The notes beneath the pieces are model-generated. The model had not been told where the DNA came from. It searched no databases and saw nothing but the letters and a program-made list of their open reading frames with translations. A DNA stretch of 64,000 nt from Actinoallomurus spadix. Its GTDB lineage: Bacteria; Actinomycetota; Actinomycetes; Streptosporangiales; Streptosporangiaceae. The translations under genes were made by a program, and so were the position numbers. The stretch lies in NCBI RefSeq assembly GCF_024055725.1, contig NZ_JAMXMX010000003.1:124001-188000 (forward strand). The letters run 5' to 3'. This document shows, one piece after another, positions 6,290 through 19,333 of the stretch (position 1 is the first letter of the stretch; each line of letters starts with the position of its first letter).

Positions 6290-9247
6290 ATGAGCGTGAC
6301 GGAACCCGCCAGAGCGATGGGCGAGGAGATCCTCAGCACCGGGGTCGGCCGTGAGCTCCTGGAGCGGCTGGACGAATGGACCAGGGCGCATCCGTGGCGG
6401 CTGGGCGGCCAGGCGTTCCCGTTGGTGGTGCTGGAGTCGGCCGACGCCGGTGTGGACGCCGGCGCGTACGTCGACGCCCTGGCGCAGGCGGCGGCCGCGG
6501 CCGACATCCCGCACCTCGTCCTGTCCTCCCCGGACGCCCCGGAGCGCGCCGCCGACGGCGAAGATCAGGGCGGCGCGGTCCCCGGCAGGACGCCGCCGGG
6601 GATCACCCTGCTCGACTCGCTGAGCAAGCCCGGCGCGTGGCCCGAAAACGGTCCCGCGGCCGGCCGTTACCGGTTCCCCCGGTCGGACCTCGTCCGGTCC
6701 TGCGAAGAGGCGGTCCGCAGCGCCGCCGAGAAGAACCGGGAACGGCCCGCCTCGACGACACCTACCGAGGAGTGGTCCGACGCCGCCGTGCTGCTGCCGT
6801 GGACCCGGCGGCCGCTGACCGCGCCGGTGTGGTGGTCCACCGTCATCGTGCTGGTCGCCGCCATCTTCGGCGGCATCGCCCAGGGCGTCGCGGACAAGAC
6901 GCGCATCGGCACCCTGCTTGCCGTCTGCTGCGTCCTGCTGGCGGCGGTCGCACTCGCCGCCGGCCTGTCGAACCGCAGGATCTGGCTGCCCATCCTGTCC
7001 CGTGTCGGATTCGGTACGCGCTACCGCTGGCTGGCCGCCTCCTCGTTCTTCGCGGTTCAGGGAAGCCGGGGATTCGGCGGGCGGCTGAACTCCCAGCTCG
7101 AGCAGATCAACGATGCCCTCGGGATCGAGTCGGCCAGGTCGGCCGGCGCAAGGAAACGGGAGAAGGCGGCCAAGTCCTGGCTGCAGACGAAGACGTTCGC
7201 GTTCCTGGAGGACCTGCGCGCCCGGCACCGCAAGCTCTCCTTCACCCTCCGGGGGTTCAAGCGCCCCGTCCCGTCCGTGGTGTTCCTCCGGGACATCACC
7301 CGCCGGAACGGCGGCGCCGAACTGCTGGTGGCCATGAGCGACGTGCGCAGCCGCCGCAGCGAACTGCATCCCCTGCTCGTCATCGCCTCCGTCGACCATG
7401 CCCACCGCGCCGACATCGACGACCTGCTCGGTGCCGCTCCCGCCGCCGGTTCCCTGTCCTCCGGCAAGCGCTCCGAAACTCTCAAGAAGCGCTACGAGGA
7501 CTGGATCAAGTCCCTGGCCGGCGCCCAGGGGCCCAGCACCCAGGTCACCTCGCCGTGGCTGCTGCGGCTGCCCATCACCGCCGACAACCCCGCCGACGCG
7601 ACTCCTCCGCCGCTGAAACCCCGCACCCGGCCCCGCTGGACGTGGCTGTGGTCGGGCCGATCGCTGCTGGCGCTCCTCGCCGCCCTCGCCGTCGGCGGGT
7701 CGTACCTGCACGCCCAACTGACCTCGACGCACTGCAGCGTCCACGCCCTGTTCTTCGCCAACACCGACACCCAGCTACGCCGCGACGCCGCGGGCAGCCG
7801 CGAGTGCGTCGGCATCGCCACCGAAGGCGTCCGCTTCGAACAGGGCCCCCTCAGCACGACGCTGGGCGGCGGGAGCGCCAAGCCCGACGCCGCCCATACC
7901 GCGGACCAGATCACGCTCGCCGATCTGGAGAACCGGATCGCGGCGGAGAACGCCTGGGTGCTGGCCGGCCACCGGCCGTACGTGACGATCCTGTACGTCG
8001 GGATGATGACGGCGGCCAACGGCCAGGAGAACAGCACGGTGAGCACCATCCGCCAGCTCGCTGGAGCGTACCTCGCGCAGCGCGGCAACAACCGTGCCCA
8101 AGCCGGCGGCGGCGACGATCCCCTGAAGATCCGTCTGCTCGCGGTGAACGCCGGGCAGGACATGGCCTTCTCCAAGATCGCGGCGGACCGCATCCTCGCC
8201 ATGGCGCGCCGGGACCGCACGGTCGTCGGGGTGGTCGGTCTCGGCCGCAACACCGCCGAGTCGCAGAAGGCCATCCGCAGGCTGAGCGCCGCCGGCCTCG
8301 CGGTGGTCAACCCGGTCAACTCCTCCGACACGCTGCGCGCGCTCCCGCAGTTCTACGGTCTGGCCGCCACCGACAACGACGAGGCCGTGGTCGCCCGTAA
8401 GGCCCTGGGCGGCAAGCGCGCCGGCCGCACGCTGATCGTTTACCGCTCCCCCGGAGTGGAGGGCAACGACTACGGCGCGGAGCTGGCCGAGGACGCACGG
8501 CGGGCGCTGGCGGTCGGCCGGTCCTCGACGATGCTGCGCTACGACGGCATCGACGACATCGGCGCGAAGGTACGGGCGGCTTGCCGGAACTCGGCGGGAG
8601 ACCCCTACACCCTGGTGTACTTCGCCGGGCGCACCGAAGACCTCGGCGGCCTCATCAACGCGCTGCGCGACGGCGGCTGCGCCGATCGCGAGCTGACGGT
8701 GCTCGGCGGGGACGAGGTGTCCCGGTCGCGGTTCGGCACCGGCCGGACCGACGTGCTGTTGCCGCGGTCGATGACGGTCTACTACACGACGTTCACCTAC
8801 CCGCCGAACCTGGTCGCGGGGAACAGGGACACCGACAACCCGTTCTTCGTCCTCGCCCGGAACGAGCTCGGAATCGGCCCCGAACAGCGTTCGGCGCTGC
8901 TGGCGGACGGCCAGATGATCATGTCGTACGACTCGACGTCCGCGTTGGCACAGGCCGCGGAGCGCGCCTTCGGAACGCTGGACCTCGCCGCGCACGGCGC
9001 GGCCCGCGCGCCGGGCTCCGCGTCGGTCACCTCCGGCTCGGTGCTGCTGACGTTGCCGAATCTCAGCTACCAGGGCGCGACCGGTCTGATCGACTTCACC
9101 CACGACCAGCACGTCAGAGGCGGCTCCGGCCGCCGGGCGCTCACTCTGGTCAAGGTGACCGGCCGTGACCTCGGAGCGACGCCCAAGGCCGTCTGCGGCC
9201 AACTCGCCGGTGGCCGGCCCGCCCCTGGCCTTCCGGCCTGCCAGTAG
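6290..9247 (+). CDS. Membrane-anchored receptor: degenerate NTPase-like region + periplasmic-binding-protein domain
   Basis: 985 residues from ATG 6290 (GCGGGGG upstream). Residues ~30-60 (QAFPLVVLESADAG...) look like a beta strand, loop and helix in the place of a P-loop but lack GK[ST]. Two hydrophobic segments (~185-235) form a membrane hairpin. A cytoplasmic part (~240-450) contains VVFLRDITRR followed by LHPLLVIAS, resembling the Walker-B and sensor strands of KAP/STAND-type NTPases without clear catalytic acids. A third membrane segment (~475) leads to an extracellular region (~500-985) resembling type I periplasmic-binding proteins of the LivJ kind, with VVGVVGLGRNTAESQKAIRRLS and GGDEVSRSRF. 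I infer ligand sensing outside coupled to an inactive NTPase scaffold inside. No transporter genes adjoin it, so import is unlikely. The domain names rest on pattern similarity only. Confidence 0.75.
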   Translation: MSVTEPARAMGEEILSTGVGRELLERLDEWTRAHPWRLGGQAFPLVVLESADAGVDAGAYVDALAQAAAAADIPHLVLSSPDAPERAADGEDQGGAVPGRTPPGITLLDSLSKPGAWPENGPAAGRYRFPRSDLVRSCEEAVRSAAEKNRERPASTTPTEEWSDAAVLLPWTRRPLTAPVWWSTVIVLVAAIFGGIAQGVADKTRIGTLLAVCCVLLAAVALAAGLSNRRIWLPILSRVGFGTRYRWLAASSFFAVQGSRGFGGRLNSQLEQINDALGIESARSAGARKREKAAKSWLQTKTFAFLEDLRARHRKLSFTLRGFKRPVPSVVFLRDITRRNGGAELLVAMSDVRSRRSELHPLLVIASVDHAHRADIDDLLGAAPAAGSLSSGKRSETLKKRYEDWIKSLAGAQGPSTQVTSPWLLRLPITADNPADATPPPLKPRTRPRWTWLWSGRSLLALLAALAVGGSYLHAQLTSTHCSVHALFFANTDTQLRRDAAGSRECVGIATEGVRFEQGPLSTTLGGGSAKPDAAHTADQITLADLENRIAAENAWVLAGHRPYVTILYVGMMTAANGQENSTVSTIRQLAGAYLAQRGNNRAQAGGGDDPLKIRLLAVNAGQDMAFSKIAADRILAMARRDRTVVGVVGLGRNTAESQKAIRRLSAAGLAVVNPVNSSDTLRALPQFYGLAATDNDEAVVARKALGGKRAGRTLIVYRSPGVEGNDYGAELAEDARRALAVGRSSTMLRYDGIDDIGAKVRAACRNSAGDPYTLVYFAGRTEDLGGLINALRDGGCADRELTVLGGDEVSRSRFGTGRTDVLLPRSMTVYYTTFTYPPNLVAGNRDTDNPFFVLARNELGIGPEQRSALLADGQMIMSYDSTSALAQAAERAFGTLDLAAHGAARAPGSASVTSGSVLLTLPNLSYQGATGLIDFTHDQHVRGGSGRRALTLVKVTGRDLGATPKAVCGQLAGGRPAPGLPACQ

Positions 9248-16059: not shown

Positions 16060-16265
16060 CGGCCAAGTGTCCCAATCGGCGGGAATCGCGACATCCGCCC
16101 CGATGACGACCGGCACGCGGGTACCGGCGTACATCGCAAGGATGACGCGCCGCCCTCGTCCCCCTGGCGGAGGACCGGAGTTCGCCACGGTTGCCGACGC
16201 GCCGGTCCGCGCACCGCTCCTAGCGTCGGGTCGCGTCGACACCGACCCGATCCGTGGAGGACCCG

Positions 16266-16952
16266 TTGACAGCGATCATCGAGATCCGAGATGTGCGCAA
16301 GAGATACGACGAAGGGCCGCCGGCCCTGGACGGCCTGAACCTCCAGGTGCGCGCCGGTGAGGCGCTGGCGGTGCTCGGCCCGTCGGGCAGCGGCAAATCG
16401 ACCCTGCTCAACATGATCGCCGGATTGGACAAGCCGAGCGAAGGCGCCGTCACCGTGGACGGCCTACGCGTCGACCGGCTGGGCGAGGCCGCCCTGGCGA
16501 GGTACCGGCGGGAACGGATCGGAATGGTCTTCCAGTTCTTCAACCTGCTGGACGACCTGACCGCCGAGGACAACGTGCTCCTGCCGGCCCAGCTGGCCGG
16601 CGTGCCGCGGGCCAGGGCCCGCGCCCGGGCCGCCGAACTGCTCGACCAGCTCGGCATCGCCCGGCACGCCCGCGCCTTCCCCGGCCGCCTGTCCGGCGGC
16701 GAGCGCCAGCGCGTCGCGGTCGCCAGGGCGCTGATGAACCGTCCCCCGCTCCTGCTGGCCGACGAGCCGACCGGCGCTCTGGACAGCGCCTCCGCCGCCG
16801 ACGTCAGGGAACTGCTGGTCGACCTCAACCGGAACGGGCAGACGATCCTGCTGGTCACCCACGACACCGCGCTCGCGGCGTCGAGCGCGACACGGACGAT
16901 CGAGCTGATGGACGGCAGGATCTCGCGCGACGTCCAGACGGTCACCCGATGA
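16266..16952 (+). CDS. ABC exporter ATPase (MacB/LolD type)
   Basis: 228 residues with Walker A GPSGSGKST, Q-loop FQFFNLLDDLTAEDN, signature LSGGERQRVA, Walker B LLLADEPTGALD and the switch His in LLVTHDTALA. The EPTGALD ending is typical of ATPases that energise FtsX/MacB permeases rather than importers. TTG 16266 is chosen because GGAGG sits 5 bases upstream; a GTG at 16254 is in frame but would overlap that ribosome binding site. The stop overlaps the permease ATG (ATGA). Confidence 0.92.
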   Translation: MTAIIEIRDVRKRYDEGPPALDGLNLQVRAGEALAVLGPSGSGKSTLLNMIAGLDKPSEGAVTVDGLRVDRLGEAALARYRRERIGMVFQFFNLLDDLTAEDNVLLPAQLAGVPRARARARAAELLDQLGIARHARAFPGRLSGGERQRVAVARALMNRPPLLLADEPTGALDSASAADVRELLVDLNRNGQTILLVTHDTALAASSATRTIELMDGRISRDVQTVTR

Positions 16953-19333
16953 GCGCGCTGGGGAGGGTCGTACGCGCCGGCGTCGGACGGCGCCGCGTCC
17001 AGACCGTGGTGATGACGCTGACCACGATGATGGCGGTCACCGCGTCGGTGCTGGCCGCAGGTCTCCTCGTGACGTCGCAGGCCCCGTTCGACCACGCCTT
17101 CGCGAAGCAGAAGGGCGCGCACCTGACCGTGCAATACGACGGATCAAGGGTCACCGCCGGGCAGGTCGCGGCCACCGCGCACGTCTCCGGGGTGACGGCG
17201 GCCGCCGGGCCGTTCCCGGTCCTGTCGCTGCGTCCGCATGTCGGCCGGAACAAGTCCGGCATGCCGCTGGGCGACCACCTGCCGCCGATGACGATCGTCG
17301 GCCGTGCCGATCCGGGCGGACCGGTCGACGACCTCGACCTCACCACCGGTCGGTGGGCCACCGGGGCGGGGCAGGTCGTGCTGAGCGACGAGAATGCGCC
17401 GTTCGGCATCGGCGACCGTATGGATTTCCCCGATCTGCCCGGCGGTCCGTCGCTGACCGTCGTCGGGCTGGCCAGGTCGGTGGGCGCTAGCGCGGAGGCG
17501 TGGGTGTCGCCGGCGGAGCTCACCGCGCTGACCGCTCCCGGTGCCGTACCGGCCCATCAGATGCTCTACCGCTTCGCCGGCGCCGGGACCGACGCCCAGA
17601 TCACCGCCGATCGCGCCGCGATCACCGCGGCCGTGCCGCCGGGATCGATGACCGGAGCGGCGTCCTACTTGAAGATCAGGCTGGCCGCGAGCCGCGCCTC
17701 GGCGACGTTCGTCCCGTTCGTGATCACCTTCGGGGTCCTCGGCCTGGTCATGTCGATCCTGATCATCGGCGTCGTGGTCAGCGGGGCGGTCGGCGCCGCG
17801 ACCCGGCGCATCGGCGTCCTGAAGTCGCTGGGGTTCACCCCGGCCCAGGTCGTGCGCGCCTACGTCGCGCAGGCGCTGATCCCCGCGACCGTCGGCGCCG
17901 TCCTGGGCGTCATCTCCGGCAACCTGCTGTCGATCCCGGTCCTGAGCCAGGCCAAGAGCGCGTACGGCACCGGCGGGTTGACGGTCGCCCCATGGATCGA
18001 CGTCGCCGTTCCCGCCGTCGTTCTCGCCGCGGTCGCCGTCACCGCACTGGTGCCCGCGCTGCGTGCCGGGCGGCTGCGGACCGTCGAGGCGATCGCCGTC
18101 GGCCGCACACCCCGCTCCGGACGCGGCCGCGCGGTGCGGTACCTGCTGGGCCGGCTGCCATTGCCGCGGCCGGTGAGCCTCGGCCTGGCCACCCCCTTCG
18201 CCCGGCCCGCGCGGTCGGCGACGGTGGCCGCGGCCGTGGCCTTCGGCACGATCGGCATCACCTTCGGCGTCGGTCTCGCCCTGTCCCTGAACGCGATCCA
18301 GAACGGCCTCAACCGCCGGACCCCGGGTACGGTCGTGGTCTCGGCCTTCGCGTTCGCCCCGCCGGCCCCCGGGACGGACCCGGCCACCCCGCTCGTGAAG
18401 CCGGCCGTGAAACCCGCGGCGATCGCCGCGAAGATCAGTGCGCAACCGGGCACCAGGCGCTACTTCAGTACCGGCCAGACCCGGGTCGGCGTGGCCGGAC
18501 TGGCCGGCCGGACGACCGTGATCGCTTACGAGGGCGACTCGTCCTGGGGTTCGTACCAGATGGTCGCCGGGTCGTGGTTCCACGGCCGAGGCCAGGCGGT
18601 GGTCCCCTCGGGGTTCCTCAGGACGACCGGGGCCCATATCGGAGACACCATCACCCTGACCGAGGGCGGCCGCAGCGCCCCGGTGCGGATCGTCGGCGAG
18701 GCGCTGGACCTGCGGGAGGAGGGCATGGTCATCCTGACCGATGACTCGTCCCTCACCGCCCTCCGCGCCCCCGTCCTGCCGGAGTCGGTCGAGTTCGCGA
18801 TCGATCTCAAACCGGGAACCGATCCGCGGGCGTATCTCGACTCGCTCAACGCGGCCCTGCGGCCGCTCGGCATCACCGCGGCGACCAATTCCGGGCGGCT
18901 GAGCGGCACGGTCGTCGCCATGGACACCCTGGCCGCGATGCTCACGTTGATGCTGCTCGCCGTGGCCGGTCTGGGCGTGCTCGACACCGTCGTGCTCGAC
19001 ACCCGGGAGCGCGTCCACGACCTGGGGGTGCTGAAGGCGCTGGGTATGTCACCGAGGCAGACGGTCACCATGGTCATCACATCGGTCGCCGGAGTCGGCC
19101 TGCTCGCCGGCGCACTCGGGGTCCCGGTCGGCGTCGCGCTGCACGATCACGTGCTGCCGGTCATGGGTGATGCCGCGGGCACCAGGTTCCCGGCGGCGGA
19201 CATCGCGGTGTACGACCTGCCCGTGCTGATACCGCTCGTCCTGGGCGGGCTGGTCATCGCGGCGGTGGGCGCGTTCCCGCCGGCCGGCTGGGCCGCCCAC
19301 ACCCGCACCGCGACCGCTCTGCGCACGGAGTAG
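16949..19333 (+). CDS. FtsX/MacB-type ABC permease
   Basis: 794 residues. An N-terminal membrane helix (VVMTLTTMMAVTASVLAAG) is followed by a large extracytoplasmic MacB-like domain (~45-240), an FtsX module of three helices (~250-370), a second N-terminal-type helix (~415-440), another extracytoplasmic domain (~460-630) and a final FtsX module (~645-790). This two-FtsX layout occurs in exporters of peptides, antibiotics or lipids and in mechanotransmitters. ATG overlaps the ATPase stop, so the two form one complex. The divergent kinase/regulator pair probably controls it. Substrate unknown. Confidence 0.92.
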   Translation: MSALGRVVRAGVGRRRVQTVVMTLTTMMAVTASVLAAGLLVTSQAPFDHAFAKQKGAHLTVQYDGSRVTAGQVAATAHVSGVTAAAGPFPVLSLRPHVGRNKSGMPLGDHLPPMTIVGRADPGGPVDDLDLTTGRWATGAGQVVLSDENAPFGIGDRMDFPDLPGGPSLTVVGLARSVGASAEAWVSPAELTALTAPGAVPAHQMLYRFAGAGTDAQITADRAAITAAVPPGSMTGAASYLKIRLAASRASATFVPFVITFGVLGLVMSILIIGVVVSGAVGAATRRIGVLKSLGFTPAQVVRAYVAQALIPATVGAVLGVISGNLLSIPVLSQAKSAYGTGGLTVAPWIDVAVPAVVLAAVAVTALVPALRAGRLRTVEAIAVGRTPRSGRGRAVRYLLGRLPLPRPVSLGLATPFARPARSATVAAAVAFGTIGITFGVGLALSLNAIQNGLNRRTPGTVVVSAFAFAPPAPGTDPATPLVKPAVKPAAIAAKISAQPGTRRYFSTGQTRVGVAGLAGRTTVIAYEGDSSWGSYQMVAGSWFHGRGQAVVPSGFLRTTGAHIGDTITLTEGGRSAPVRIVGEALDLREEGMVILTDDSSLTALRAPVLPESVEFAIDLKPGTDPRAYLDSLNAALRPLGITAATNSGRLSGTVVAMDTLAAMLTLMLLAVAGLGVLDTVVLDTRERVHDLGVLKALGMSPRQTVTMVITSVAGVGLLAGALGVPVGVALHDHVLPVMGDAAGTRFPAADIAVYDLPVLIPLVLGGLVIAAVGAFPPAGWAAHTRTATALRTE

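Follow-up and report, generated by a model that had tools for sequence, protein, structure and literature searches.

A membrane-spanning protein of Actinoallomurus spadix joining a periplasmic-binding domain to a degenerate NTPase-like domain, a candidate signalling receptor

Introduction

What does a periplasmic-binding protein (PBP) of the LivJ type do when no transporter is encoded beside it and its chain runs through the membrane into a degenerate NTPase-like domain? The question is raised by an open reading frame (ORF) at positions 6290–9247 of a 64,000-nucleotide (nt) stretch of the Actinoallomurus spadix genome (positions 124,001 to 188,000 of contig NZ_JAMXMX010000003.1; hereafter the window). 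An earlier note on this DNA, made from its letters, took the architecture to suggest a signalling receptor in which a solute-binding fold drives an inactive NTPase scaffold. The architecture holds in our analysis, with homology of the N-terminus to NTPases and a LivJ/mGluR-type C-terminus both recovered, and the driving of the scaffold by the PBP becomes a proposal for how these parts might work together. The reading we prefer, with somewhat better than even confidence, is that of a single-chain transmembrane (TM) receptor, its amino-acid-type PBP governing a pseudo-NTPase scaffold and the whole being derived from a two-gene NTPase-receptor unit.

The ORF encodes 985 amino acids (aa) and a stop on the forward strand, with antisense frame 1 over the same interval containing a stop. 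Judged by its relatives it is a real gene, since the Actinoallomurus soli orthologue is 88% identical and other orthologues are 40–62% identical. The start of translation at 6290 is, by the same comparison, not certain, because the ATG at this position is GTG in A. soli and the upstream DNA is also alike. Searches with the single protein gave little, with Pfam and NCBIfam models yielding no useful family (only a sub-threshold ANF_receptor match at residues 875–941) and a sequence search of the PDB yielding no match at E 1.

An NTPase-like domain without its nucleotide-binding motifs

The descent of the N-terminal domain emerges from the alignment of profiles. A profile of 21 fused N-termini aligned by hhalign with one of 15 separately encoded NTPases at a probability of 99.05% (E 2.2e-18, 258 columns, 19% identity), with ten column shuffles and a reversed profile reaching at most 0.2%. 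Removal of the TM hairpin gave 99.06%, and the two parts of the domain taken separately gave 94.8% (residues 1–178) and 97.9% (residues 236–440), with their eight shuffles at or below 0.97%. The fused profile held 21 of 23 rows, L021 and L025 having been dropped beforehand for poor N-terminal alignment, and the 15 NTPases were picked from 23 matches by a P-loop-like pattern and length; the eight omitted are fragments, copies, or L068, a 752-aa ORF without the pattern, and one of those included, L071, has no PBP beside it. The fused profile scored at most 0.2% against KAP (two sequences) and single NB-ARC, UvrB and ABC sequences, which are thin controls, with the separate-NTPase profile scoring 71% against KAP (54 columns), 93% against ABC (26 columns), 8% against NB-ARC and 4% against UvrB. 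An hmmsearch of the focal sequence alone with the NTPase profile matched residues 282–389 at E 2.3e-7, the value being that of a one-sequence search. On these alignments the N-terminus is homologous to the STAND/AAA-like P-loop NTPases, to which 14 scanned separate NTPases are related by weak Pfam matches around the P-loop (AAA_22 in nine, AAA_16 in eight).

Set against STAND/AAA_16-like NTPases, the focal protein has neither Walker A nor the Walker B Asp, is missing the C-terminal part, which amounts to ~300 residues in the separate NTPases, and carries a TM hairpin inside the domain. Two features pointed out in the earlier note are borne out, the P-loop-like strand lacking GK[ST] being visible in the translation and in the orthologue columns, and the membrane hairpin being placed at about residues 180–227 by hydropathy and by the helices of the AlphaFold2 (AF2) model. 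The Walker-B-like part proposed there survives as a strand and loses its Asp, the position being taken by Arg334 here and by Arg, Ala, Ser, Lys or Pro in orthologues. Both the Walker A motif GxxxxGK[ST] and the Walker B Asp are absent from the focal protein and from all 15 orthologue rows. The AF2 model of residues 1–478 (pLDDT 74.8, pTM 0.76) places strands at residues 45–50, 75–79, 329–334, 362–368 and 424–429, with the TM hairpin between them; the motifs paired with those of the separate NTPases are collected in Table 1.

In KAP NTPases the TM insertion site lies between Walker A and Walker B, and the focal hairpin falls between strands 45–50 and 329–334. Membrane segments within the NTPase domain are a feature that KAP NTPases share with the focal protein. 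Membership of this family is rejected on sequence, with PF07693 matching neither the focal protein, the separate NTPases nor any protein of the same genome, and the fused N-terminus reaching 0.1% by hhalign against two KAP sequences, taken from five KAP matches.

A two-gene form of the unit survives in the same genome. On contig C22 (locus L051, 7613–11070) a 644-aa NTPase gene adjoins a 511-aa TM-PBP gene, the two overlapping by 10 nt including the stop if the called start is right, and the NTPase has an intact P-loop (GPRGSGKT) and the motif LLLDN. Relatives of this NTPase occur in 16 of 120 family genomes at E 1e-10, and a family PBP adjoins the NTPase in 15 of 17 further loci (L072–L088), with L077 and L078, both counted in, having broken frames, L080 stopping at a contig end and L083 having no PBP. 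The arrangement also varies. In L076 (genome G057) a single long frame spans both NTPase and PBP, with the P-loop segment in an overlapping other frame, through sequencing error, decay or perhaps a real frameshift, and in L081 (5520–9009) one NTPase gene is followed by two tandem TM-PBP genes. In L159, L172 and L173 there is a TM-PBP gene with no NTPase gene called beside it, all three adjoining the same peptidase-like gene, and these may be orphan receptors.

An extracellular domain of the LivJ/mGluR type

The AF2 model of the C-terminal domain (residues 466–985), built from 24 sequences, has a pLDDT of 85.8 and a pTM of 0.90. Foldseek against the PDB matched it to the ligand-binding domain of mGluR5 (E 1.1e-14), with bacterial LivJ-type proteins in the top 50 at TM-scores of 0.67–0.78 by target length (0.77 for LivJ, 4gnr). 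A profile of 14 family PBPs (A5) matched the LivJ-type chain 4n0q at E 6.2e-11, and a narrower orthologue profile (A4) matched no LivJ-type chain at 0.01. The LivJ-like character claimed in the earlier note is thus recovered by fold and by family profile alike, and from the model and the alignments residues 479–985 are a type I PBP of the LivJ/mGluR type. The fold is common to LivJ and the ligand-binding domains of class C GPCRs, with LivJ-type proteins matched weakly by the family profile. Unlike these, the focal protein is membrane-tethered and has extra Cys residues, and a cytoplasmic NTPase-derived domain replaces the transporter or the seven-helix (7TM) domain.

The third membrane helix, also proposed previously, is present as an AF2 helix and stays below a strict hydropathy cut of 1.6. 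The six Cys residues beyond it are kept in every row covering them and the three before it vary (16 rows), a pattern that fits an extracellular C-terminus. Residues Asn654/Thr655, Ser678 and Asp784 are invariant in the orthologue rows covering them, with Ser678 and Asp784 presumably on or near the ligand-contact columns of LivJ and mGluR as candidates only, and the placing of Asn654/Thr655 ambiguous by one column. Compared with A. soli, the ratio of nonsynonymous to synonymous substitution (dN/dS, NG86) is 0.27 overall, 0.08 in the hairpin, 0.11 in the third TM helix, 0.17 in the PBP and 0.26 over residues 40–175.

Class-wide survey of the receptor module

At E<=1e-10, 92 of 296 genomes had matches to profile A5, ordinary PBPs among them, with up to five candidates scored per genome. 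From the matches listed, the 69 scoring 150 bits or more were taken and G380:C193, where the contig begins, was left out, giving 67 loci and 68 PBP ORFs. Thirty of these are fused to an NTPase-type domain, 15 are split and 23 have no NTPase match. The motif GxxxxGK[ST] is present in 0/30 fused forms and 11/15 split forms, with the remaining four split NTPases keeping the glycine-rich loop and losing the K or the S/T. Two of the fused ORFs, L180 and L197, contain looser A....GK[ST] strings at sites other than the first strand, and for seven of the 30, where no residue aligned at the first strand, absence of the P-loop is based on searching the entire N-part for the pattern. Fusion and P-loop loss are associated (Fisher p 1.3e-7, relatives being treated as independent), an association resting on few events, since the tree requires only ~5 changes of the ‘fused’ label. 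At the Walker B position the fused ORFs have Asp in 18, Glu in four, another residue in seven and a gap in one, compared with Asp in all 15 separate NTPases, showing that Walker B often survives in proteins without Walker A and that the focal group has lost both. Hydrophobic segments before AFLEDLR number two in ten of the 30 fused rows, one in 11 and none in eight, with one row unanchored, so that the hairpin is frequent and not universal.

The same TM-PBP module is also joined to other cytoplasmic domains. A domain scan of 10 of the 23 remaining N-termini found TIR_2 with Pkinase (L148, L151), TIR_2 (L185), TIR_2 with NB-ARC (L192) and DUF4062 (L194, L195 and L198, in one clade with L202 on the tree), with no domain match for L157, L175 and L176. 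The P-loop of L192 is intact (GMGGVGKT), hence the motif can survive fusion in an NTPase of another family. By eye, L193 and L203 are kinases, L202 begins like DUF4062, and L160 is split by the gene call. In a tree of 75 PBP domains, in which the labels of L200 and L160 were set by eye, split and fused forms fall in different halves divided by a weak branch (47/65), with the TIR and TIR+NB-ARC forms nested among the fused proteins and the TIR+kinase forms among the split. It is this nesting that argues most strongly for the pseudo-NTPase sitting in a signalling position. L148, L151, L185, L192, L193 and L203 are Toll-like in architecture, and the focal protein looks like a member of a little-studied set of bacterial receptors in which the inner signalling part has been swapped.

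Proposed mechanism and alternative readings

In the receptor that we propose, the extracellular LivJ/mGluR-type Venus-flytrap domain would bind an amino-acid-like small molecule and close, with the movement passing through the third TM helix and the TM hairpin to a cytoplasmic domain that is presumably RecA-like. Descended from a STAND/AAA-like NTPase, this domain is now without Walker A, the Walker B Asp and the C-terminal part; it should therefore run no NTP cycle and would serve instead as a docking scaffold under the control of the ligand. The origin is most likely the fusion of an NTPase and membrane-PBP two-gene unit of the kind that persists, with an intact P-loop, on contig C22.

Several results weigh against this reading. 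Foldseek found no match to the N-terminal model at E<=0.001, with RdrA best at E 0.12. Of the two fold matches asked for in the earlier note, that of the C-terminal domain to type I PBPs was obtained, and that of residues 1–460 to P-loop NTPases was not obtained by Foldseek on its own, although many of its weak matches are AAA+ proteins (RdrA first, with TRIP13, FtsH and p97 also present), alongside unrelated folds. The focal stretch 18–71 matches the wrong end of the NTPase profile (E 0.004), and none of the conserved neighbours is an obvious signalling partner. The core at residues 240–440 has a dN/dS of 0.65 against A. soli, linkers included, a constraint far weaker than that on the TM segments and PBP, which would fit a degenerating domain.

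This last result also supports an alternative that we consider unlikely, namely that the N-terminus is vestigial and the protein a membrane-anchored binding protein, acting as a ligand buffer or as the orphan subunit of a distant transporter with the pseudo-NTPase as a mere anchor. The contrast between the core and the PBP, the lack of an adjacent transporter or partner gene, and the relatives L159, L172 and L173 would all suit such a protein. However, the Walker-less domain occurs in five family codes on the tree (f1, f17, f18, f37 and f46), the motifs RFPR, RYRW, AFLEDLR and HPLLV are recognisable in most rows, and residues 40–175 are more constrained than the core. A receptor that acts in trans, its pseudo-NTPase mixing with an active NTPase such as that of C22 in the manner of an inactive ring subunit while the PBP gates the enzyme, is distinctly improbable. 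The intact NTPase-PBP pair and the focal gene do share one genome, and genome G381 also has both fused and split forms, but a relative of the split NTPase was found at E 1e-5 in 0/4 other orthologue genomes (G115, G052, G114, G131), which indicates that a partner of the C22 type is not required and leaves room for a more distant one. Least probable of all is a metabolic sensor linked to the thiolase, DUF35 and nitronate monooxygenase genes upstream and signalling the presence of a nitro or acyl compound processed by their products, with the receptor gene directly following the monooxygenase gene in 9/17 loci (L092–L108) and one gene further on in L107, but separated from it by 206 nt in the window, without those genes beside it in L094, L095, L100, L105, L106 and the Streptomyces relatives, and matched in stability of position by other fused paralogues, whose flanking genes were identified by eye as serC and citrate synthase, such that the synteny may reflect vertical inheritance alone.

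Beyond the receptor reading itself, a speculative extension that we regard as doubtful is a Toll-like actinobacterial system in which a flytrap-TM module is combined with interchangeable outputs and the Walker-less receptors act as NTP-independent or dominant-negative tuners of the arming of death or defence, set by small molecules outside the hypha. The cytoplasmic domains or partners observed are TIR, TIR+kinase, TIR+NB-ARC, kinase, DUF4062, a partner STAND ATPase and the pseudo-ATPase, and at 30/68 the Walker-less receptors outnumber every other class in the sample. A known anti-phage defence label for the focal protein found no support, with no PADLOC model matching the 985-aa protein at E 0.01; two of three separate NTPases match PADLOC mad8 weakly (E 2.6e-4 and 1e-5).

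On the single-chain receptor reading, an orphan binding protein finds its place in a broader arrangement, with one small-molecule receptor module joined to an NTPase partner, a TIR domain, a kinase or a dead NTPase. Together, split and fused forms would provide a natural before-and-after pair for what an ATP-free switch protein does, and many actinobacterial proteins that are likely annotated as transporter binding proteins may be signalling receptors.

Comparison with known systems

The nearest published systems among those examined are ‘System 4’ of Kaur et al. 2020 (PMC7159879) and the GlnH-GlnX-PknG system (PMC9769921). As described there, System 4 combines EACC1 with a caspase component that has C-terminal TM helices and an extracellular PBP. 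It is prevalent in actinobacteria and, like the focal protein, membrane-associated, with an extracellular PBP that comes after a TM helix and is linked to a signalling or effector domain in the cytoplasm. It differs by its constant partners, EACC1 and a caspase or cyclase. The Pfam scan of the focal protein itself found no EACC1, caspase or cyclase domain, no such model having been run on its neighbours. The actinobacterial GlnH-GlnX-PknG cascade likewise combines an extracellular amino-acid-binding PBP with a membrane protein and an output in the cytoplasm, without transport. It consists of separate proteins, however, and has a kinase output; GlnX is reported to have four TM segments and to be almost all helical, and the abstract of PMC9769921 mentions no NTPase-derived domain. 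No description of the focal receptor family was found by title and abstract start among open-licence PMC papers.

Feature map, distribution and genomic neighbourhood

Table 1. Features of the receptor gene and its product, with coordinates in the window.
Feature	Coordinates	Strand	Basis
Whole gene: pseudo-NTPase, TM hairpin, pseudo-NTPase core, TM, type I PBP	6290..9247	+	ORF, orthologues
Residues 45–60, first core strand (FPLVVLE) at the place of the P-loop strand of the split NTPases, GxxxxGK[ST] absent	6422..6469	+	hhalign, orthologue columns
Residues 128–131, RFPR, paired with FPR of the separate NTPases	6671..6682	+	hhalign
Residues 180–227, TM hairpin inside the NTPase-like domain	6827..6970	+	AF2, hydropathy, dN/dS against A. 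soli
Residues 244–248, RYRWL, paired with DWYGD of the separate NTPases	7019..7033	+	hhalign
Residues 304–310, AFLEDLR, paired with AFLADLR of the separate NTPases	7199..7219	+	hhalign
Residues 330–335, VVFLRD, Walker B strand with Asp replaced, paired with VLLDN	7277..7294	+	hhalign, orthologue columns
Residues 359–367, LHPLLVIAS, sensor-1-like strand, HPLLVIAS paired with PLTFVATS	7364..7390	+	hhalign, orthologue columns
Residues 456–477, third TM helix, after the W-rich RTRPRWTWLW	7655..7720	+	AF2 helix
Residues 479–985, extracellular type I PBP with six conserved Cys	7724..9244	+	AF2, Foldseek, profile search
Residues 654–655 (NT), candidate ligand contacts	8249..8254	+	LivJ-type alignment, ambiguous by one column
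Residue S678, candidate ligand contact, aligned with Thr of LivJ-type proteins	8321..8323	+	LivJ-type alignment
Residue D784, candidate acid facing the amino group	8639..8641	+	LivJ-type alignment

A search with the five closest sequences as query returned 24 related loci, comprising L092–L108 from Actinoallomurus, Actinomadura and one Streptosporangiaceae bacterium, with 40–88% identity over the best segment, and seven Streptomyces loci (L109–L115) with 30–33% identity. Among same-family genomes, 58/150 have a match at E<=1e-10 (33/68 genera), mostly to the PBP part, with near-full-length matches at five places (49–100% identity); in the phylum sample, 2/198 genomes match at E 1e-25, the own genome counted. 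A. soli has two focal-family copies in one genome (L092 and L095), one of them syntenic.

The gene calls on both sides of the receptor gene belong to families other than transporters, in agreement with the earlier note, the nearest ABC-type gene pair lying 7 kb away at 16254–19333. The upstream genes named above and a downstream SGNH esterase gene on the other strand were named by eye, and L093 and L101 start too near a contig end for a synteny call. At the start of the window, positions 2–1153 (−) encode a coiled-coil protein that contains internal repeats, with units resembling KEQAEAAVRQMM, and runs off the window start.

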